From assembly GCA_022791815.1 (NCBI GenBank), contig JAAVZU010000054.1, forward strand, positions 1 through 64,000: 64,000 nucleotides of DNA. The letters run 5' to 3'. Positions 33,738-47,751 of the stretch are shown in pieces. This stretch comes from Lachnospiraceae bacterium (GTDB taxonomy: Bacteria; Bacillota; Clostridia; Lachnospirales; Lachnospiraceae). Made by a program: the position numbers and the translations under genes. Numbering within the stretch: the stretch's first letter is position 1; the number at the start of each line of letters is the position of its first letter. The notes beneath the pieces were generated by a model that did not search any database, had not been told where the DNA came from, and saw nothing but the letters and a program-made list of their open reading frames with translations.

Positions 33738-34838
33738 TTATCTTTCCTCAAAGAAGGATAAAATAACATCAATAAGTGCATTATTTTTATCTGGCATCAT
33801 AAAGCAGAAACGAAAATATTGGTTGTCGAGAAATGGGAATGTGGAACAGTTTCGGATCATAAGACCCTTTTGTATTGCAGCGTCAAAAATATCATCTGCT
33901 GTTACACAATCATCCAATATTTTGACTAAAACAAAATTTGAATTACATGGATATAGTTTTAAGCTGTTACATTGTGATAAAATATTGTAAATCCGATCGC
34001 GTTCTTTTGAGATCAAGGTTCTTGTTTCCTGGATATATGCTTCATCAGAAAACATAATTTCCCCAGCAATGGCAGCAAGACTGTTAATTGTCCAAGGGTT
34101 TTTCTTGTGGTCAATTTCACGGATTAAATCTTGATTGCCACAAATAGCATAACCTAGACGCAGTCCAGGGGCAGCAAAAAACTTGGAAATACCCCGAAGA
34201 ATAATTATATTATTATAATACTCTGTTAAAGGAATAGAAGTAACTAATTCAGGTTTTTGGGCAAATTCCACATAGGTTTCATCTACCATAACAAAGATAT
34301 CTTTTTCTTTGCAAATATCTAATATTTGACGTAAGTCTTTTTGAGGAATATAAGAGGAGGTGGGGTTGTTTGGATTACAGAGAACCAGCAAATCCACATC
34401 CTTTGTCAATTCTACCTGCAGGGTTGAAAGTTCCAATTGAAAATCATGTTCTTCCTTTAAGCGGAAGTAATGGCAACGGCCACCATTAATTGTGATTTCT
34501 CTTTCATATTCAGAATAAGTAGGTCCTAGAATTAAAGCTTTTTTGGGGTGCTTTATTTGAATTAGGACAGAAATTAGTTCTGTAGAACCATTGCCTACAA
34601 GGATATTTTTATAATCTGTGTCTACATAAGTACCAATAGCTTTTCTAAGGTCTGTATATTCTCTATCTGGATAGGATGTAATAGCATCTATATGGGAGGA
34701 GAGACTTTCTTTTAGCTTGAAAGAAATTCCAAGAGGGTTTACATTGGAAGAAAAGCTAGTGATATCTTCTTTTTTTATATGGTATTTTTTCTCTATTAAT
34801 TCTAAATCACTCCCATGAAAGTGTTCTTTATGTTTCAT
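33738..34838 (-). CDS. CobD/HisC-like PLP-dependent aminotransferase
   Basis: A fold-type I PLP enzyme of 366 residues. The N-terminal 'FSSNVNPLGIS' is typical of threonine-phosphate decarboxylase CobD. Histidinol-phosphate aminotransferases share the rest of the fold. The cofactor region includes 'VGNGSTELIS', the Asn/Asp sites 'CNPNNPTSSY' and 'MVDETYVEF', and the Schiff-base Lys in 'RGISKFFAAPGLRLGYA' (about 214-230). No cobalamin or histidine genes are nearby in the window, so the substrate is undetermined. The ribosome binding site on the - strand is AAAGGAGAT. Confidence 0.85.
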   Translation of the reverse strand: MKHKEHFHGSDLELIEKKYHIKKEDITSFSSNVNPLGISFKLKESLSSHIDAITSYPDREYTDLRKAIGTYVDTDYKNILVGNGSTELISVLIQIKHPKKALILGPTYSEYEREITINGGRCHYFRLKEEHDFQLELSTLQVELTKDVDLLVLCNPNNPTSSYIPQKDLRQILDICKEKDIFVMVDETYVEFAQKPELVTSIPLTEYYNNIIILRGISKFFAAPGLRLGYAICGNQDLIREIDHKKNPWTINSLAAIAGEIMFSDEAYIQETRTLISKERDRIYNILSQCNSLKLYPCNSNFVLVKILDDCVTADDIFDAAIQKGLMIRNCSTFPFLDNQYFRFCFMMPDKNNALIDVILSFFEER

Positions 34839-35050: not shown

Positions 35051-38000
35051 TTGAAGGATAAGATTACAAGATTATCAAGAGAACATTTTGAATATGAATT
35101 ACCAGAGATTATCTGCTCTGAGGAAAAGATCAGCATTGCAGTTGAGATTGGAAAGGTACATAAAGGAGTTTTAAAGTTAAAGAACAAAGAAGGAAGAAGT
35201 ATGAAGGGGTTAGTATATTCTTCCTCTCATTTGCTGTGTTTGGAAATAGAATCTTTTGATGGACATGAGGTAGAGATTGGTTATGAATTTCGGGCAACAG
35301 ATATTCGGACTAGGGATGAAATTTATGGGACGGTAAATATTGTCAGTTCTTGTGGAGAAAAGGAGATTCCATTTCAAGTAACAGTGTTGGAAAAATATGT
35401 GGAGGCTTCTTTTGGAGAGGTAAAGGATTTATTTCATTTTGCTAATCTGGCAAAGATAAATTGGTTAAAAGCAGTGAGTATATTTAAATCTAAGGAATTT
35501 GAAGAAATATTCCTACGTAAAGATTTAGAAAAGAAACTGTTGTATCGTGGATTATGTAAGAGTGATAATTCAGAACAGGCATTAGAGGAGTTTTTGGTAA
35601 GTATACAAAAAAAGAATGTTCCAAAGCTTTCTGTATTAAAGGAATTTTATAACTTTCAAGTACGAAAGGAAGATGTTTCTGAGGAAATTGTACTTCAGAA
35701 AGATAATTGGGGATATTTGGATATTGATATTTGGGCAAATCAGGAATTTTTAGAGATTGACCAGAAAAAATTAAATCAGGATTCCTTTATTGGGAATGAA
35801 GTAAAATTACAATTTCAAGTAAAGAATAAGAATCTGAGACCTGGAAAGAATTTTGCAAAAGTTATAATTAGAAATATGTACCAGACCATAGAAGTACATA
35901 TTGAGATGGAAAAGCTTGTAAAACATGTGGAGAGAGATTATGATGAAGTGAAAAGGAAACAGTATGAGATTGTTTTAATAAACAATTATATTAACTTCCG
36001 AAGTAATCGGATTGACACATTGGATTATATTACTGAAACACGTAATGCTGTTACCAAATTAGAGGCAATAGAGGCAGTAAAGCGAAATTTGGGGGATTTA
36101 GGATATTCCAGAAGATTAGATTTATACCAATTTCATTTATATATTGTGGAGGGGGCAGAAGAAAAAGCAAAGGCAATGTATGAATCCCTGAAACAAGAGG
36201 AACATTTATTACAAAAGAATACAATAGTAGATTATTGTGGTTATTTATATTTGAAGGCATTATATACTAGAAGAAAAGAAGATTTACAGACAGCATTGCA
36301 GGAAATCAGAGAGTGTTATAAACAGCATCCAGATTGTTGGAATTTATTATGGTTTCTTATTTTTTTAGATGAGAAATTAGATCAGAAGCCTGAAGAGAAG
36401 TTAAAAGTAATTAAAGAGCAGTATAGCAGAGGCTGTGTCAGCCCTGTCCTTTATTATGAAGTGTGCAGCGTGTATGAACAAGATCCTACTTTGCTTAAAG
36501 AATTAGATTCCTGCACAATTCAGAGCTTTAATATGGGAATAAAGCAGGATATGTTTTCTTTACCTGCTGCCATTCAGTATGCATATCTTGCAGAAAAAGA
36601 AAAAGGATATCATAGAATTATTTTCTCTAATTTAGTGACCTTATATAAAAAGTTTGAGGATAAACAGATACTAAGTGCTATTTGTAGTCTTTTGATTAAA
36701 TCGGATATGTCAAGCCATAATTATTTTCAATGGTATGAGATGGGGGTAAAGGAACGGCTGCATATTACCCAGCTTCATGAGTATTATATTTATGCCATTG
36801 GTGAGAATGATACAGGTATTTTTCCTAGAGAGATTTATATGTATTTTCTTTATAATGCAAATTTACCAGAAGAGAAGAAGGCATTTTTATATGCTAACAT
36901 TATTCAGCATAGTGATGAATTGTTTGATATTTTTGCTGAATACAAAGAACAGATTCATAATTTTACTATGGAGCAGCTATTTAAACATCATTTTAACCAG
37001 CATCTGGCAGTATTGTATAATATAGTTATAAAGGAAAATCAGATAACAGCAGATATTGCAAAACATTTTCCTTTTGTTTTGTTTAAACGGATGGTTACAT
37101 GTAACCATAAAGATATTGTAGGTGTATCAGTTGCTCATAAAGAATGTATAGAGGAGATTTATTATCCATTTGATAGAAATGGCAGGACATTTATAGATAT
37201 TTATACTGAACATGCAAAGGTATTCTTGGTTGACCGTCAGGGCAGAAGGTACGATACCAGTATACCAAAAGAAGAAAAAAAATTTACCAGCAGAAACCGT
37301 TATGCAGAAGCGTGTTATGAAAAGAATAAGACGAATGTTATGTTGTCTTTATATATCTATGAGCGAATAGAACGATATCAAAAGAGCAACATCAATGTGG
37401 CTGAGCTGCAGAATCATGTAAATAAAGATTTATTACAGCCAGAGTATCAGAAAAAATGGATAATGAATTTAATTCAACATTATTATGATAACTATGAGGG
37501 TGAGTCTTTAGAAAAACTTTTGATAGAAGTAGATTTGCAGAGTATGAGTAAGTCGGAACGCAATTTGATAATTGAGTATTGTATTATCCGGGGACTTTAT
37601 GATTTGGCGTTTGATCAGATTACAGAATATAGTTTTGAAGGAATTACAGTAAAAAGGCTTCGTGCTCTATGCTCAAAAACTATTAAAAAATGTGGTATGG
37701 AGAAAGAAGTACCCTTACTTTCTAAGATGGGATTTTATGTATTTAAAGCTGGAAAGTATGATGAAATAATTTTAGAATATCTGGTAAGATATTATCTTGG
37801 GACTACGAAAGATATGTTTTTGGTATGGAGAGAAGCCAGAGAATATGATATGAATACAGAAGAACTAGAAGAGAGGCTTTTAGGTCAGATTTTATTTGCT
37901 GAGAGTTATGTACAAGATGCTATGGCAGTATTTTTCTCTTTTTATGAAAAGGGAAAGAACAGAACTTTGATTAAGGCATTTATCAGTTATTATTCTTACA

Positions 38001-38638
38001 AATATTTTGTACGGGACAGAGTAATTGATGAGAGCTTTTTTGAGGTAGTAAAAAGAGAACTGCAGATTGAGCCTAATCGTGCTGCTCTGCTAGCTTTGTT
38101 AAAGTATTATAGTACTTTGGATAAATGGACAGAGGAGCAACGTACTTTTATTGAAATCGAAACAGAAAAATTGATTGAGGAGAGAATGGTATTTCCTTTC
38201 TTTCAAAAGTTTATACCAGAACTTCAACTGCCAAGGAAAATTGGTAATAAATATTATATAGAATATAAAACAAATCCCAAACATAAAGTTTTACTCCATT
38301 ATTTTTTGGAGGATGAAGAGATGAAGGAAGACTTTCAGGTAGAACAAATGGAGAATTTATATGAGGGAATTTTTGTTCGGGATTTTACATTATTTCATAA
38401 TGAAACTCTGCAATACTATGTGGAAGAAGTTCCCATAGAAGGAGAGCCGATTATAACAGAGAGTATTACAATCCGGGGTGATGAATTGCAAAGGGACGAA
38501 GAAGAGGATAAATATGGACAAATTAATATGATGCTTGTTGCAAGGGAAATGAAAGATGAGAAGACACTACTCAGTCTGATACGAAACTATGCAAAGACAG
38601 AATATGCAATGCGTAAAGTTTTTAAAGGGCTGGAATAG
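35051..38638 (+). CDS. DUF5717 family giant protein (about 1195 aa)
   Basis: A very large cytosolic protein of unknown function that I recognise as DUF5717-like. The N-terminal 110 residues look beta-rich ('EKISIAVEIGKVHKGVLKLK'), like an immunoglobulin-type sandwich. Residues about 110-1000 are mostly helical repeats in an alpha-solenoid/TPR-like pattern. The last about 150 residues return to a beta-rich module ('GEPIITESITIRGDELQ') and end in a short helix. No signal peptide or membrane segment. I favour TTG 35051, 5 nt after AGGTGG; GTG 35042 has no ribosome binding site. It is the first gene of a four-gene operon with an Hsp70-like protein, a TPR-like protein and a membrane coiled-coil protein. 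A scaffold role is inferred. Confidence 0.85.
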   Translation: MKDKITRLSREHFEYELPEIICSEEKISIAVEIGKVHKGVLKLKNKEGRSMKGLVYSSSHLLCLEIESFDGHEVEIGYEFRATDIRTRDEIYGTVNIVSSCGEKEIPFQVTVLEKYVEASFGEVKDLFHFANLAKINWLKAVSIFKSKEFEEIFLRKDLEKKLLYRGLCKSDNSEQALEEFLVSIQKKNVPKLSVLKEFYNFQVRKEDVSEEIVLQKDNWGYLDIDIWANQEFLEIDQKKLNQDSFIGNEVKLQFQVKNKNLRPGKNFAKVIIRNMYQTIEVHIEMEKLVKHVERDYDEVKRKQYEIVLINNYINFRSNRIDTLDYITETRNAVTKLEAIEAVKRNLGDLGYSRRLDLYQFHLYIVEGAEEKAKAMYESLKQEEHLLQKNTIVDYCGYLYLKALYTRRKEDLQTALQEIRECYKQHPDCWNLLWFLIFLDEKLDQKPEEKLKVIKEQYSRGCVSPVLYYEVCSVYEQDPTLLKELDSCTIQSFNMGIKQDMFSLPAAIQYAYLAEKEKGYHRIIFSNLVTLYKKFEDKQILSAICSLLIKSDMSSHNYFQWYEMGVKERLHITQLHEYYIYAIGENDTGIFPREIYMYFLYNANLPEEKKAFLYANIIQHSDELFDIFAEYKEQIHNFTMEQLFKHHFNQHLAVLYNIVIKENQITADIAKHFPFVLFKRMVTCNHKDIVGVSVAHKECIEEIYYPFDRNGRTFIDIYTEHAKVFLVDRQGRRYDTSIPKEEKKFTSRNRYAEACYEKNKTNVMLSLYIYERIERYQKSNINVAELQNHVNKDLLQPEYQKKWIMNLIQHYYDNYEGESLEKLLIEVDLQSMSKSERNLIIEYCIIRGLYDLAFDQITEYSFEGITVKRLRALCSKTIKKCGMEKEVPLLSKMGFYVFKAGKYDEIILEYLVRYYLGTTKDMFLVWREAREYDMNTEELEERLLGQILFAESYVQDAMAVFFSFYEKGKNRTLIKAFISYYSYKYFVRDRVIDESFFEVVKRELQIEPNRAALLALLKYYSTLDKWTEEQRTFIEIETEKLIEERMVFPFFQKFIPELQLPRKIGNKYYIEYKTNPKHKVLLHYFLEDEEMKEDFQVEQMENLYEGIFVRDFTLFHNETLQYYVEEVPIEGEPIITESITIRGDELQRDEEEDKYGQINMMLVAREMKDEKTLLSLIRNYAKTEYAMRKVFKGLE

Positions 38639-38655
38639 AAGGGAACGAAATAAAC

Positions 38656-39933
38656 ATGGCAGAGGAGAGAAGTTTACTGGTTGGTGTGGATTTATGTGAA
38701 GATTATTCACAAATTACCTGCTTTAGTATGGTAACTTATGAACCAGAGTCAATATGTCAGAATGGTAATGTAGAAAAGTATCGTATTCCAACAGCATTAT
38801 TTTACAAATCCGATACAGCCGAGTGGTTTTTTGGAGAGGATGCTATTGAAAGACATACCAACCAAAAAGGATTCCTAATTAAAAATATTATAGAGAAGGT
38901 TTCAAGAAAAGATTTAGTGGAAATTGAAGGGCATAAAGTGGAACCAGTGCTTTTATTAGAGAGATATCTAAAAAGACTTCTTGGCATGCTAAAGCCAGAG
39001 TACCCAAGTAAAACCATTCGCAAATTGGTTGTTACAGTAAGGGAAAAGAATATGATACTAATTAACCATATCTATCAAGCATTACAAAATCTGGGAATTA
39101 GCAAGGTAAGAGCTAGTGTACAAAATCATGAACAATGTTTTGTATCCTATGCACTGAATCAGCCTAAAGAACTTCGTGTGAATGATATTGTATTATTTGA
39201 CTTTGATAACAGAGGTCTTATGTTTTATCAGATTACAATAAACAGAAGAACTGTACCGCATACAGTGGTTATGAAAAGAAAAAGTTTTCTGGATACCTTA
39301 AATTATGAAATTTTATTAGATGATACTACAAAAGAAAATGTATCATATATATTTGAAAATATTGTAAGAAATGTACTTCATAAACAGCTTATTACAGCAA
39401 TATATGTTACAGGAAGCGGATTTGAAGGAAAATGGTGCAGGGATGTTTTGAAAGAATTTTGTGTGGGTAGAAGAGTATTTCTCGGACAGAATTTATATGC
39501 GAAAGGAGCTGGTTATGCAGCAAGGGAATTAGCTGGGGAAGGAAGGAGCGGAGAGTATCTTTATCTAGGTGAAGAAACTGTTACCGTAAATATTTCTATG
39601 CCGCTATTCACCAATCAAAGAACAGTGGAGTATCAGCTAATAAAAGCGGGAACAGCATGGTTTAATGCATCAAAGACCATTCAGTTTATTCCAGATGGTG
39701 AATTTGAAATTGAATTGATTGTAGAGAATGTGGCAGAGCATCGTGTAGAACGGCATTTAATTTCTATGGATGGATTATATCAGTTATCAAGAAAGACGAG
39801 AATTGAATTGTCTGTAGAATTTATGGATATAAAGACTTGCGTTGTTACCTTGCGGGATAAGGGATTTGGAGATTTATTTCCATCTTCAAACCGGATATGG
39901 GAAAAGATTTTAAATATCCAGACAAAAATGTGA
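38656..39933 (+). CDS. DUF5716-like protein with Hsp70/actin-type ATPase fold
   Basis: The 425-residue product has features of the actin/Hsp70 superfamily. A phosphate-1-like loop is 'VGVDLCEDYSQITCF' (about 9-23), and a DnaK-like 'FGEDAIE' follows. A second phosphate-like strand is 'IVLFDFDNRGLMFYQI'. An adenosine-site-like 'AIYVTGSGFEGKWC' (about 249-262) and the final 'GQNLYAKGAGYAAREL' (about 278-293) match the nucleotide-domain end of DnaK. Residues about 300-420 are a beta-rich region comparable to a substrate-binding domain. I associate it with DUF5716, but that assignment is from memory. The phosphate loops deviate from DnaK, so ATPase activity is uncertain. It starts 17 nt after the DUF5717 gene, with the ribosome binding site GAAGGGA. 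Confidence 0.82.
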   Translation: MAEERSLLVGVDLCEDYSQITCFSMVTYEPESICQNGNVEKYRIPTALFYKSDTAEWFFGEDAIERHTNQKGFLIKNIIEKVSRKDLVEIEGHKVEPVLLLERYLKRLLGMLKPEYPSKTIRKLVVTVREKNMILINHIYQALQNLGISKVRASVQNHEQCFVSYALNQPKELRVNDIVLFDFDNRGLMFYQITINRRTVPHTVVMKRKSFLDTLNYEILLDDTTKENVSYIFENIVRNVLHKQLITAIYVTGSGFEGKWCRDVLKEFCVGRRVFLGQNLYAKGAGYAARELAGEGRSGEYLYLGEETVTVNISMPLFTNQRTVEYQLIKAGTAWFNASKTIQFIPDGEFEIELIVENVAEHRVERHLISMDGLYQLSRKTRIELSVEFMDIKTCVVTLRDKGFGDLFPSSNRIWEKILNIQTKM

Positions 39934-39956
39934 TTGCAGAAGAGGAAGTTGTTGAT

Positions 39957-40793
39957 ATGGGGAAATTTATTTTATGTACTGGAATGCCAGCAAAGGAACC
40001 TTATTATTTTACATTAACTGGAACTAATGTGTATTCCATAGAAGAATTAGGATATTATCTATATCATAATATTTACACAGTACAGTTGGAAGACTTTAGT
40101 GAAAAGCTATTTAACTGGATACAATATGATTTGAACATGGAAGAGTTTGCAGACAAGTGCAGAGATATCAGGGAAAAAAGTGATGATATTAAAGATATTG
40201 TGGTAAGTATTCTTTGTGTAACGGATTATTTTACTAAACTAGAACTGGAAGGTTTAATTAAGACTATTGATAAGATAAATGGATTATCTTCCATTGAAAA
40301 GCAAAAAATAAAAGCAGATAACTTTTTGAAATATGAAGATTATGAAAGTGCAATTACCGAATATGAATGTATTGTTGCATCTGAGGAATCGTCTGTTTTT
40401 CCAGCAGAAAGTTTTGGAAATATTTTACACAATTTGGCAGTAGCACATGTTCAAGTAAAGGCATTTGAACGGGCAAAAGAGGAATTTAAAAGAGCTTATG
40501 AGTTGAATCATAATGAAGAGACAAAGAAAGAATTTTTCTTTCTATTAAAGCTACAAAAACAAGAGAAAGAATTTTTAAAGGAGATTCTAAATTTTAACTT
40601 ATCTCCAGAAGAGGTACAGGAATATTTAGGAGAATTAGAAGGAATCTTGCAGGAGGCAGAACAAGCAGCAGAGTATAAAAAGATTTTAAATCTTCCCAAG
40701 TTAAAAGACTCAGGAAAAGTGGGAGAATATTATTATGCTATTGATACAATGATATTTAATTGGAAACAGAAATATAAGAATGGAATGGAGTAA
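39957..40793 (+). CDS. TPR-like protein of the DUF5717 operon
   Basis: I do not recognise a named family. ATG 39957 is preferred: AGAGGAAG lies 9 nt upstream, and the gene then starts 23 nt after its neighbour. The upstream ATG 39897 would overlap the preceding gene by 37 nt. The product of 278 residues begins 'MGKFILCTGMPAKEPYYF' and 'VYSIEELGYYLYHNIY', a compact N-terminal module. Helical pairs at about 135-215 resemble tetratricopeptide repeats ('ILHNLAVAHVQVKAFERAK'). The end is helical and charged. No membrane segment. It probably mediates protein contacts within the operon's complex (inferred from TPR and context). Confidence 0.78.
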   Translation: MGKFILCTGMPAKEPYYFTLTGTNVYSIEELGYYLYHNIYTVQLEDFSEKLFNWIQYDLNMEEFADKCRDIREKSDDIKDIVVSILCVTDYFTKLELEGLIKTIDKINGLSSIEKQKIKADNFLKYEDYESAITEYECIVASEESSVFPAESFGNILHNLAVAHVQVKAFERAKEEFKRAYELNHNEETKKEFFFLLKLQKQEKEFLKEILNFNLSPEEVQEYLGELEGILQEAEQAAEYKKILNLPKLKDSGKVGEYYYAIDTMIFNWKQKYKNGME

Positions 40794-40795
40794 GC

Positions 40796-42085
40796 ATGGG
40801 TTTTTTTGATAGAATAAGAAAAAGAAACAGGAATCCCAAAGAAAATGTCTTGACAGAGAAAGAAGAAGAATTATTAGAAGAGGGCATAGAAAGAAGAATT
40901 CGGAAACAGCAGGAAAGTAAGGAGCAGACTCAAGAGGATGAAAGCATAGAAGATTATGAGCCGACTATTTCTTATGAGGACAGCCAGGAAGAAGAGTTCC
41001 CCATACATGGTACGCAAACAAGGGAAGAATATATACAGGCAATTATAGACAATTGTGAACAGATTATAGAGACAGAGCGGCAAACGAAACATGCAAAAAT
41101 AGAATATCAGGCAGTTACAGAATATTTATCTGATTTGCAGAAGATTGAGAGAATGGAAGTTGAAGAGAAAAAAAATTTAGAAGATGCCGCAGCTAAAGTA
41201 ATCCGATTTACAAAAGAACGGGAAAATTATCAACAAAAAGAGATTCATACCTCAAATCCGAGATTTCGTCCCCTACGGAATTATGAAGGAAATATTATGG
41301 AAGATTTAAAGCGAATGAGGGAACAAGAGGAATATAGTAAAAAAGTAAAAAATGACCTTCGTCAGCTTACTGCAGAGAGAGATTCCCTAAAGTATGAATA
41401 TAAAGAAGTCTTTCATAAGCAAGATACTTTGAAAAAGATAGCAATTGCTACCTTTGCTCTTGTTATCAGTTTGTTTGTGTTATTCTGGGTATTATCTGTA
41501 GGATTAGAACAAAGTATGGTAATTCCATACAGCATGACAGTTCTAATGGCAGCAGGAATTGCAGGATATGTTTTTTATGAATCCTATCGTAACCGTTACG
41601 ATCATGCATTAATAGGGAAAAAAATTAACCGTGCAATTGCTTTAACAAATAAAGTTAAAATTAAGTATATTAATAACACAAGTACTCTGGATTATAGTTA
41701 TAGTAAATATAATGTGGAAAATTCTATGGAACTGGAATATTTGTTAAAAGAATATACAAAAGCGAAAGAGCAGGAAAGAACTTATAGAAGCAATACAGAG
41801 AGATTAGATTATTATCGGAATAAAATAGTGAATATTTTAGAACATCACAAGGTAAAAGATTCTGAAATATGGATATATCAGGCTACAGCATTAGTAGACT
41901 CTGCAGAATTTGAAGGTATCAAAAAAAATTTAGAGGTAAGAAGAGAGAAACTAAAGGAAAAGATGGATTATAATCTTCAAGTAAAAGATGATTGTTTTTT
42001 GAGACTGCATCAGATTCTGGAGCAAAAGGAAGAACTTCGAGGTGAAGTTTTAAAGCAGCTAGAAAAATATCATATTGTACTATGA
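40796..42085 (+). CDS. Membrane coiled-coil protein of the DUF5717 operon
   Basis: 429 residues, family not recognised. The first about 215 residues are very charged and helical (Glu, Lys, Arg, Gln). Two adjacent hydrophobic segments lie at about 217-236 ('IAIATFALVISLFVLFWVLS') and 243-262 ('IPYSMTVLMAAGIAGYVFYE'), followed by about 160 residues of charged coiled coil. This predicts a membrane hairpin with both long arms in the cytosol. It begins 2 nt after the TPR-like gene and ends the operon. It may anchor the DUF5717/Hsp70-like assembly to the membrane. Its stop codon lies just before a structured repeat (42087). Confidence 0.78.
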   Translation: MGFFDRIRKRNRNPKENVLTEKEEELLEEGIERRIRKQQESKEQTQEDESIEDYEPTISYEDSQEEEFPIHGTQTREEYIQAIIDNCEQIIETERQTKHAKIEYQAVTEYLSDLQKIERMEVEEKKNLEDAAAKVIRFTKERENYQQKEIHTSNPRFRPLRNYEGNIMEDLKRMREQEEYSKKVKNDLRQLTAERDSLKYEYKEVFHKQDTLKKIAIATFALVISLFVLFWVLSVGLEQSMVIPYSMTVLMAAGIAGYVFYESYRNRYDHALIGKKINRAIALTNKVKIKYINNTSTLDYSYSKYNVENSMELEYLLKEYTKAKEQERTYRSNTERLDYYRNKIVNILEHHKVKDSEIWIYQATALVDSAEFEGIKKNLEVRREKLKEKMDYNLQVKDDCFLRLHQILEQKEELRGEVLKQLEKYHIVL

Positions 42086-42086
42086 A

Positions 42087-42164
42087 GGGCGAAAGCCTGG
42101 AATACGAATACAGTTGTTGATTGCGGAAGTGCGAAGCACGAAGCAATCAACTTTCATGTATGGT
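42087..42164 (+). repeat. Structured intergenic repeat, copy B (RNA-like)
   Basis: Starts 1 nt after the preceding stop codon. It contains GGC-GAAA-GCC (a GNRA tetraloop hairpin) and TTGATTGC paired with GCAATCAA around GTGC-GAA-GCAC. About 81% identical to 27018-27095. The flank to 42184 (TGGTGTTGCT..TTGACAGCA) has matches at 13960-13981 and 44957-44966. Confidence 0.65.
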
Positions 42165-42206: not shown

Positions 42207-42237
42207 GTAACAGACCAGATACTGGCTGAATTGTTAC
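42207..42237. repeat. Short palindromic repeat, copy 2
   Basis: GTAACAGACCAG and CTGGCTGAATTGTTAC: GTAACA/TGTTAC and CAG/CTG pair. Less perfect than copies at 34995 and 58260. It ends 31 nt before the GNAT start codon. Confidence 0.55.
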
Positions 42238-42268
42238 AAGAATGCAGATAAGGAAGAGAAGTGGAATT

Positions 42269-46312: not shown

Positions 46313-47751
46313 GTGGATTATAAACCTTTACCAATTGGTATAGACAATTTTGAATTGTTAATCACAAGAGGCTATTATTTTATAGACAAGACTCTGTTTA
46401 TGAAAGATTTAATAGATAAAAAAGGAGCTGTAACTTTATTTACCCGTCCAAGAAGATTTGGAAAGACATAATATAAGTGTGCTTCAATACTTCTTTGAAG
46501 ATGCTAGAGAAGCAGATGGAACAAAGGTGGATAATGCATACCTGTTTGATGGTTTGAATATTATGCAGGCAGGAGAGGAGTATCTATCATATATGGAGCA
46601 GTTTCCAGTTATAAACTTGTCCTTAAAGTCTGGAAAACAGCCAGATTTTGAACTGGCGTATGATATGTTAATCCGTCAGATTGCATACGAATATGGACGT
46701 CATAGTTTTATGTTAAAGGATGAACGTTTGGCCGAGCAAAAAGAGAGATATCTTGAGATTATGCGTGAGAAAGCAAAACGCAGCAGTTACAATGATGCGT
46801 TGTTATTTCTTTCCCGATGTTTAGAAATGTATTATGGAAAAAAGTTGTTATTTTAATTGATGAATATGATGTACCTTTAGAGAATGCTTTTTTTGAAGGT
46901 TTTTACAAAGAAATGCTGGATTTTATCCGTTCCTTGTTTGAATCTGCATTGAAGACAAACAGCAGTCTGGAGTTTGTAGTGATTACTGGATGCCTGCGTA
47001 TCTCTAAGGAAAGTATATTTACAGGGCTGAATAACTTAAAAATTATTTCTATTACAAATAAGCAATTTAATGAATACTTTGGTTTTACTGATGCGGAAGT
47101 GAAGAGGATGTGTGAGGTTTATCATCTTGTACATAAGTATAATTTGATAAAAGAATGATATAATGGTTATATATTCGGAGAGTCAAATGTGTATAACCCA
47201 TGGAGTGTGGTTCGGTTTGTTGAGGATTTGCATGAAGATGAGAACCAATTTCCTTCTTCTTATTGGGCAAATACCAGCAGTAATAGTATTGTTAAAAAAC
47301 TGATTGAACGTGCAGATGAGGAAACAAAAGAAGAAATCGGGGCTTTGATTGAAGGGAAAAACATTGAAAAGCCTGTACATCCGTACCAAAATACTTTCCT
47401 GGTTTCGTGAAAAAATAGAGAAGAAAGATTTATCCAATTTATATACAGCGTTGGTTAATAAGGATGTTTCCACTTTTGAGGAAGAATTAAATGAAGTGTT
47501 GATGGAAACCATTAGGTTTAATGATGCCTATGAGAATTTTTATCATGGTTTTGTGGCAGGAGTGTTATCAAGAATGAAAAATTATAGGGTAAAATCCAAC
47601 CGTGAAGGGGGAACAGGCAGAAGAAGCACTACAACAGATAGAAGATAGGTGTTATGTAGAAGAGTTAAAAAATGATGGTTACCAGATAGTAATAAAGTAT
47701 GGGATATCATTTTATAGAAAAGATTGTGCAATAAAGAAAAAAGTAGAATAA
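46313..47751 (+). pseudogene. Decayed AAA-ATPase / PD-(D/E)XK nuclease-like gene
   Basis: Pieces of one protein lie in successive frames: GTG 46313 'PLPIGIDNFELLITRGYYFI' and the Walker A-like 'FTRPRRFGKT', then a stop at 46469. From 46472 the text continues in another frame ('SVLQYFFEDAREADGTKVDN'). A shift in an A run near 46845 gives 'VVILIDEYDVPLENAFF' (Walker B). TGA 47155 replaces the Trp of a 'KEWYNGY'-type motif, followed by 'SNVYNPWSVVRF'. Further breaks with missing segments occur near 47390 and 47610, and the end reads 'EEALQQIEDR' then 'DGYQIVIKYGISFYRKDC'. This matches the AAA-ATPase-like plus PD-(D/E)XK family (DUF1703-type), expanded in gut Clostridia and Bacteroidetes. At least five lesions make it a clear pseudogene. 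Confidence 0.88.

Follow-up and report, generated by a model that had tools for sequence, protein, structure and literature searches.

Prokaryotic Hsp70s have been divided in review into DnaK, HscA and HscC (PMC8215388). In yeast, Ssz1 of the ribosome-associated complex is an Hsp70 that has no lid, hydrolyses ATP barely or not at all and docks Ssb; it positions an active Hsp70 and acts as a partner, with no cycling of its own (PMC8476630). A different association is found in Firmicutes, where the neighbourhoods of GAP1-N2 systems contain HSP70, GrpE, a second truncated HSP70 and proteins with tetratricopeptide repeats (TPR) or FNIII domains (PMC7159879). Here, we consider a four-gene operon from a Lachnospiraceae bacterium, located within a stretch of 64,000 nucleotides (positions 1 to 64,000 of contig JAAVZU010000054.1; hereafter the window). 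It encodes a giant DUF5717 protein (gene 1), a DUF5716 protein (gene 2), a TPR protein (gene 3) and a coiled-coil membrane protein (gene 4). No paper naming DUF5717 was found in the open PMC literature, nor is the family mentioned in PMC7159879, and DUF5716 is mentioned in that literature by a single paper with an unrelated title. Comparison of loci leads us to regard as probable the existence of a previously unrecognised bacterial Hsp70 machine, encoded by an operon specific to the order, with four members of the Hsp70 family (three ATPase-intact, of which one is fused to a von Willebrand A (vWA) domain, and one dead), a GrpE of its own and the DUF5717 scaffold; the Lachnospiraceae would have retained from it only a permanently locked pseudo-Hsp70 platform, which almost the entire family maintains as a core function. 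As to how the operon of the window works, we lean towards a reduced, Hsp70-derived chaperone or assembly platform on whose scaffold gene 2 acts as a fixed structural partner.

The product of gene 2 matches DUF5716_C (PF18980) with an E value of 2e-95 (319 bits, against a cut-off of 34.7). When a profile of 67 homologues was compared with all PDB sequences, the top five matches were all DnaK (best E 2.5e-4), aligned in two collinear pieces that correspond to the nucleotide-binding domain (NBD) and the β part of the substrate-binding domain (SBD-β). HHalign comparison with three Hsp70s of the same genome gave a probability of 96.3 and an E value of 1.8e-9 over 386 columns, reaching DnaK column 464. 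The AlphaFold model (predicted local distance difference test score (pLDDT) 91.7, predicted template modelling score (pTM) 0.86) places domain-docked DnaK structures top in Foldseek (E 4e-20). Structural alignment with VIA gave Z 24.3 over 389 residues for DnaK, the alignment running along the whole chain to residue 425, and a value near to this, Z 23.5, for the NBD of Ssz1 (root mean square deviation (rmsd) 3.5, 270 residues); the large rmsd values of whole-chain alignments reflect domain orientation and were not taken as a difference in fold. Kinship with MreB was considered and rejected, as HHalign found no match to the MreB of the same genome (probability 0.8) and the best folds listed are Hsp70 or Hsp70-like (Ssz1, Hsp110); MreB, FtsA and PilM share the ASKHA superfamily fold with gene 2 in the broad sense. 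The initial annotation had assigned gene 2 to the Hsp70/actin superfamily, which profile, HHalign and AlphaFold evidence now narrows to Hsp70. Two parts of the canonical protein are missing. One is the SBD-α lid, the chain ending at residue 425, right behind the SBD-β-like part; the other, from the alignment only, is subdomain IIB, part of the GrpE-binding surface, where a gap falls over DnaK residues from about 250 to 305. Judged by sequence and model, gene 2 is a divergent, lid-less Hsp70 with an NBD and an SBD-β.

The residues on which the Hsp70 ATPase cycle depends have largely gone. Counted over the same 67 homologues, in the numbering of the organism's own DnaK (where Glu147 is the canonical Glu171), Lys70 has given way to Leu in 44, Ile in 10 and Val in 5, and Glu147 to Ser in 36 and Asn in 19, with Gly also found. 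The GGGT loop is lost, the positions of Thr11 and Thr12 are mostly Glu or Asp, and several homologues (L062, L068 and L071) are missing large N-terminal pieces of the NBD altogether. What had earlier been described in gene 2 as a phosphate-loop-like motif is a decayed remnant. Ordinary Hsp70 catalysis by gene 2 is disfavoured because its ATPase and phosphate-binding residues are lost, and the alignment is best read as that of a catalytically dead Hsp70.

A lack of conserved linkage and a gene 2 without the actin/Hsp70 fold were both looked for; the fold was found, as described above, and so was the linkage. In all 96 loci with at least 4.5 kb of downstream sequence (57 from close relatives and 39 evenly drawn; open reading frames in comparison loci were called mechanically), genes 2 and 3 follow directly after gene 1 on the same strand. 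Gene 4 comes next in 56 of the 57 close relatives but in only 16 of the 39 evenly drawn loci, and it was nowhere in the genome in any of the 23 genomes that lack it at the locus. Linkage of all four genes, as first envisaged, holds for genes 1 to 3 and is variable for gene 4, which on this distribution is dispensable and not a constant member of the operon. Two lineages have genes 2 and 3 fused in frame, with both domains in a single frame (L057, 684 aa; L123, 708 aa), and these fusions argue for physical contact between the two proteins. From the operon and the fusions together, we infer that the operon proteins form a complex. In the window, the four plus-strand genes are separated by gaps of 17, 23 and 2 nt (genes 1-2, 2-3 and 3-4), and their coordinates, including the 1195 codons of gene 1, agree with those initially annotated. 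When the window is compared with L087, the ratio of nonsynonymous to synonymous substitution rates (dN/dS) lies at 0.05-0.06 for each of the genes, with dS near 1; by this measure, all four are under purifying selection.

DUF5717 is present in 145 of 150 genera of the Lachnospiraceae (123 of 126 among good genomes) and in 62 of 116 genomes of the order, with no match above the cut-off outside the order among 291 genomes of the class and 398 of the phylum; a match in G176 (E 6.5e-4), also outside the order, lay below the family cut-off and was dropped. Named relatives with the locus, located by search with gene 1, include Anaerocolumna, Mobilitalea, Herbinix, Butyribacter and Lachnoclostridium phytofermentans. 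DUF5716 is absent from 24 of 25 tested genomes without DUF5717, the exception being a genome that is 67% complete. A few near-complete Lachnospiraceae genomes (G029, G091 and G098) have neither family, and 54 genomes of the order are without DUF5717.

The ancestry of the operon can be read from sister families of the same order, for which 20 loci were assembled and nine (one from a further genome) extended downstream. These loci and those of the Lachnospiraceae are held to be orthologous because they share DUF5717 and, in many, the same divergent aminotransferase gene (in the sister families, for example, L179-L184, L186, L193 and L194). The expanded locus runs in the order DUF5717 (often split in two), gA, gX, gB, gC, gD and TPR protein. 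Here, gA and gC are Hsp70s of about 558 and 545 aa, respectively; gX has a C-terminal GrpE domain (E 5e-12 to 3e-13); gB combines DUF5716 with a weak Hsp70 match; and gD is an Hsp70 of about 692 aa fused to a vWA domain. The TPR protein is longer than gene 3, whose profile it matches in most loci (E 1e-27 to 1e-36), and gene 4 occurs in two of the nine extended loci. Every ATPase residue that was checked is kept in gA (20/20), gC (15/15) and gD (11/11), and gB is without Lys70, Glu147 and Thr174 in 16 of 16. The description of the operon as ATP-dependent, proposed at the outset, is not supported, as these residues are lost from the gene 2 family while three Hsp70s of the sister loci keep them.

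The tree, rooted on DnaK, unites gB with gene 2 (support 1.0), and gene 2 is nested in a series that runs from most gB through those of L179/L184 and that of L175 to gene 2 itself (supports 0.949, 0.998 and 0.985). Because gene 2 is nested within the gB series and the loci of the gB outgroups are expanded, the operon of the window is a reduced form. Genome content points the same way: there are two GrpE hits per genome in 10 of 10 genomes with the expanded locus and one in 13 of 13 Lachnospiraceae, no match in 100 Lachnospiraceae genomes continues through the vWA portion of gD, and 299 genomes of the phylum yielded no full-length gX, the matches there covering only the GrpE part and lying in frames of ordinary length (about 180-270 aa). 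The suggestion of a dedicated chaperone in Lachnospiraceae survives as regards a chaperone-related origin, the system being wider than was then noted and reduced from an operon of four Hsp70-family proteins and GrpE. The operon Hsp70s form clades of their own (gA, gB with gene 2, gC and gD), apart from the DnaK of the same genome and two further Hsp70s.

These two further Hsp70s (L168 and L169, on contigs C34 and C93) have 564 and 574 aa and intact ATPase residues, and J-domain matches lie near them at C34:5666, C34:19218 and C93:44289; they are perhaps HscC-type systems. That they are relocated copies of gA, gC or gD was considered and rejected, their nearest neighbours in the tree being each other and DnaK. 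Ahead of the split N-terminal gene of DUF5717 in several sister loci, there is a protein of about 375-460 aa, partly coiled-coil, with two or three predicted transmembrane segments (L187:12328-13650, L182:2271-3656, L191:11950-13077 and L176:12227-13447), possibly the membrane anchor there.

The remaining proteins of the operon supply its architecture. Gene 1 is covered end to end by the Pfam families DUF5717_N (E 1e-269) and DUF5717 (E 2e-92), the scores for PF18984 and PF18983 being 897 and 310 bits against a curated cut-off of 25; searches against PDB sequences returned chance matches only. In its AlphaFold model (pLDDT 87.3, pTM 0.63), the relative placement of the domains is uncertain. 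Compared with single domains in VIA-align, the first β-sandwich resembles PapD-type pilus chaperones, the ASH domains of HYDIN and SCS2. The first solenoid has weak VIA matches to 7nj1 (Z 10.2) and 4gpk (Z 9.5), which for helical repeats may reflect no more than a shared arrangement. Phe1191 of the tail is invariant in an alignment of 13 sequences, and no transmembrane segment is predicted in most relatives. We infer from this architecture that gene 1 is a cytosolic scaffold in which PapD/ASH-like β-sandwiches are set on α-solenoids.

The profile of gene 3 matches TPR structures (E 1e-16) and its N-terminal region, about 100 aa long, is conserved; a proposed kinship with the solenoid of gene 1 was unsupported. 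Both the giant scaffold and the TPR protein of the initial annotation are borne out by these data, as are the membrane coiled-coil character of gene 4 and its arms, which flank its pair of hydrophobic stretches and are highly charged. Against the PDB, gene 4 has weak coiled-coil-like matches only, and no family is claimed for it; Pfam matches to Vma12 and DUF2207_C over the hairpin region were under the cut-off and were treated as chance. The idea of a membrane-tethered assembly may hold where gene 4 is present and does not elsewhere.

Taken together, these features suggest how the operon might function. Gene 2, as a lid-less Hsp70 stripped of the residues that serve ATP hydrolysis and phosphate binding and predicted to adopt a docked, ATP-like shape, would be a fixed structural partner and not a cycling chaperone. 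It would be tightly paired with the TPR protein of gene 3, both of them carried by the DUF5717 scaffold, whose β-sandwiches and solenoids would supply binding surfaces, and gene 4, where present, would anchor the assembly to the membrane. The ancestral platform would have worked with the three ATPase-competent Hsp70s and the dedicated GrpE of the same operon, both of which the Lachnospiraceae would since have lost from it. The platform that is left may recruit housekeeping DnaK/DnaJ/GrpE to particular clients, much as Ssz1 serves Ssb in yeast, or may hold clients without ATP.

Ssz1 is the best working analogue of gene 2. The analogy is functional and partial, embracing the Hsp70 fold, an SBD-β without a lid and, to judge from the catalytic residues lost from gene 2, a probable lack of ATP hydrolysis and a role as partner of other chaperones, with no special sequence kinship shown between the two. 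Ssz1 differs in retaining ATP binding, in its J-protein partner and in its place on the ribosome, whereas gene 2 has neither the phosphate loops nor, as judged from the alignment, subdomain IIB, and has a TPR partner and a giant scaffold instead. The relationship to DnaK is one of homology over the NBD and SBD-β, and the sister-family operon, with its ATPase-intact Hsp70s and GrpE domain, resembles the DnaK/DnaJ/GrpE system. The proteins of DUF5717 operons differ in forming separate clades in the present tree, apart from the DnaK and two further Hsp70s of the same genome, and in the company they keep, which includes the DUF5717 scaffold, a paralogue that is dead and an Hsp70 fused to vWA.

Several points weigh against a locked platform of this kind. 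Within the gene 2 family, Asp8 is kept in 64 of 67 homologues, Asp169 is kept in 42 (with Glu in 20) and Gly312 of the adenosine region is invariant; loss of residues is not proof that nucleotide binding is lost, and some residual binding is possible. The docked state of gene 2 may be a preference of AlphaFold. No J-domain match was obtained within the sister-family loci tested or, with Pfam, in the operon of the window, four of six tested sister genomes have canonical DnaJ only, and the Zuotin-like J-protein partner of Ssz1 has no counterpart at the DUF5717 locus. Finally, an operon reduced to a relic might no longer take part in chaperoning at all.

The main rival, which we consider possible though rather unlikely, is that in the Lachnospiraceae the Hsp70 fold was exapted as a protein-protein module, forming a purely structural scaffold within a complex of the cytoskeleton or envelope (division, elongation or cell-wall enzymes) and having no role in folding. 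The loss of ATPase residues from gene 2 and of ATPase-competent Hsp70s and GrpE from the locus would be expected of such a scaffold, the ASH/PapD-like domains of gene 1 are of a kind known in ciliary and pilus-assembly proteins, and gene 4 is a membrane protein. However, gene 2 has retained an SBD-β-like domain and the layout of a whole Hsp70, the ancestral operon is by its parts clearly a chaperone machine, and gene 4 is dispensable.

It is improbable that the operon is a conflict or defence system akin to the Hsp70- and GrpE-containing GAP1-N2 DO-GTPase systems of Kaur et al. 2020 (PMC7159879). The parts list reported there for Firmicutes neighbourhoods is similar, and gD adds a vWA domain, but the GAP1-N2 systems are defined by GTPase and GAP1 genes, and no Pfam match of either type was found among the locus and neighbour proteins scanned, which did not include every neighbouring gene. 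In addition, genes 1-4 have no PADLOC match, and the DUF5717 operon is near-universal in the family and syntenic, frequently occupies a housekeeping position and, among the sampled genomes, is confined to one order, whereas defence systems are patchy and mobile. An active ATP-dependent motor of Hsp70 or actin type, to which the Hsp70 fold of gene 2 and its retained Asp8 and Gly312 might point, is very improbable in view of the replacement of Lys70 and Glu147, the missing GGGT loop, the loss of Thr11/Thr12, and the several homologues without large pieces of the NBD.

The platform that we favour would give DUF5716 and DUF5717 a first functional frame. The operon occurs in nearly every sampled genus of the Lachnospiraceae, a family that counts among the main bacterial groups of the mammalian gut. 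With the sister families, it forms a natural series that leads from a multi-Hsp70 operon driven by ATP to an ATP-free remnant. What an Hsp70 is capable of once its ATPase cycle is gone thereby becomes testable in bacteria, for which usually only DnaK, HscA and HscC are considered (PMC8215388). Features of the locus are collected in the table.

Table. Features of the DUF5717 locus in the window (positions are those of the window; residues are those of the encoded protein)
Feature	Position	Strand	Basis and remarks
Aminotransferase class I/II (CobD/HisC-like), divergent	33738-34838	-	Pfam Aminotran_1_2, E 8.5e-54; syntenic neighbour, not an operon component
Leader palindrome AGTTCAGC-CATTA-GCTGAACT, then GTTACAA	35000-35020, with GTTACAA to 35027	.	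Sequence; upstream of gene 1
Gene 1, DUF5717, predicted giant scaffold	35051-38638	+	1195 aa; TTG start; Pfam PF18984 and PF18983, AlphaFold
Gene 1, residues 17-115, PapD/ASH/MSP-like β-sandwich	35099-35395	+	VIA-align Z about 10-11.7, rmsd about 2-3, 86-102 residues
Gene 1, residues 190-291, second Ig-like β-sandwich	35618-35923	+	VIA-align 4zmh Z 12.3, rmsd 2.1, 99 residues
Gene 1, residues 293-677, α-solenoid	35927-37081	+	Secondary structure of model
Gene 1, residues 679-744, third small β domain	37085-37282	+	Secondary structure of model
Gene 1, residues 748-1065, second α-solenoid	37292-38245	+	Secondary structure of model
Gene 1, residues 1068-1142, C-terminal β domain, then helices and tail	38252-38476	+	Model
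Gene 2, divergent Hsp70 with decayed catalytic residues (DUF5716)	38656-39933	+	425 aa; profile, HHalign, AlphaFold
Gene 2, residues 5-305, NBD-like part	38668-39570	+	VIA 7rax (DnaK NBD, 393 residues) Z 24.2, rmsd 3.7, 288 residues aligned
Gene 2, residues 306-421, SBD-β-like part	39571-39918	+	Collinear DnaK match LdglpkrpnkttrleirirfadkktcvvtvkDkGFGe; VIA to residue 425
Gene 3, TPR protein	39957-40793	+	278 aa; profile matches to TPR structures
Gene 4, coiled-coil protein with two-transmembrane hairpin, lineage-variable	40796-42085	+	429 aa; hydrophobic stretches, distribution
Gene 4, residues 215-235 and 241-261, transmembrane hairpin	41438-41578	+	Two hydrophobic stretches

The TTG start of gene 1 and its AGGTGG ribosome site are identical in the two nearest relatives. 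For gene 3, the start adopted corresponds to Met21/Gly22 of a longer frame, a Met that is invariant across relatives; the first in-frame ATG, at 39897, was rejected, as the conserved start lies at 39957. A divergent aminotransferase gene comparable with that of the window lies upstream of DUF5717 at many Lachnospiraceae loci.

Several minor features surround the operon. The leader palindrome, of which variants (TAACAGTTAGCC..GGCTTAACAGTTAC) occur at the equivalent site in L087 and L088, is probably an intergenic repeat element, to judge from its sequence. A sequence similar to it, GCTGAAYTGTTACAA at 42225 (GGCTGAATTGTTACAA over 42225-42239), is found ahead of the gene 3' of the operon, and directly 3' of gene 4 there is an imperfect hairpin, GTTGATTGCGGAAGTGCGAAGCACGAAGCAATCAAC, at 42099-42155, a possible terminator or repetitive extragenic palindrome (REP)-like element. 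Downstream of one sister-family operon (L203:9785-12897), repeated translations of the form FNSTIVRLN / FQFYNSPIKS suggest a CRISPR array. Further along the window, at 46458-47158, short frames of 132 and 113 aa overlap and together resemble a broken AAA-ATPase-like gene.

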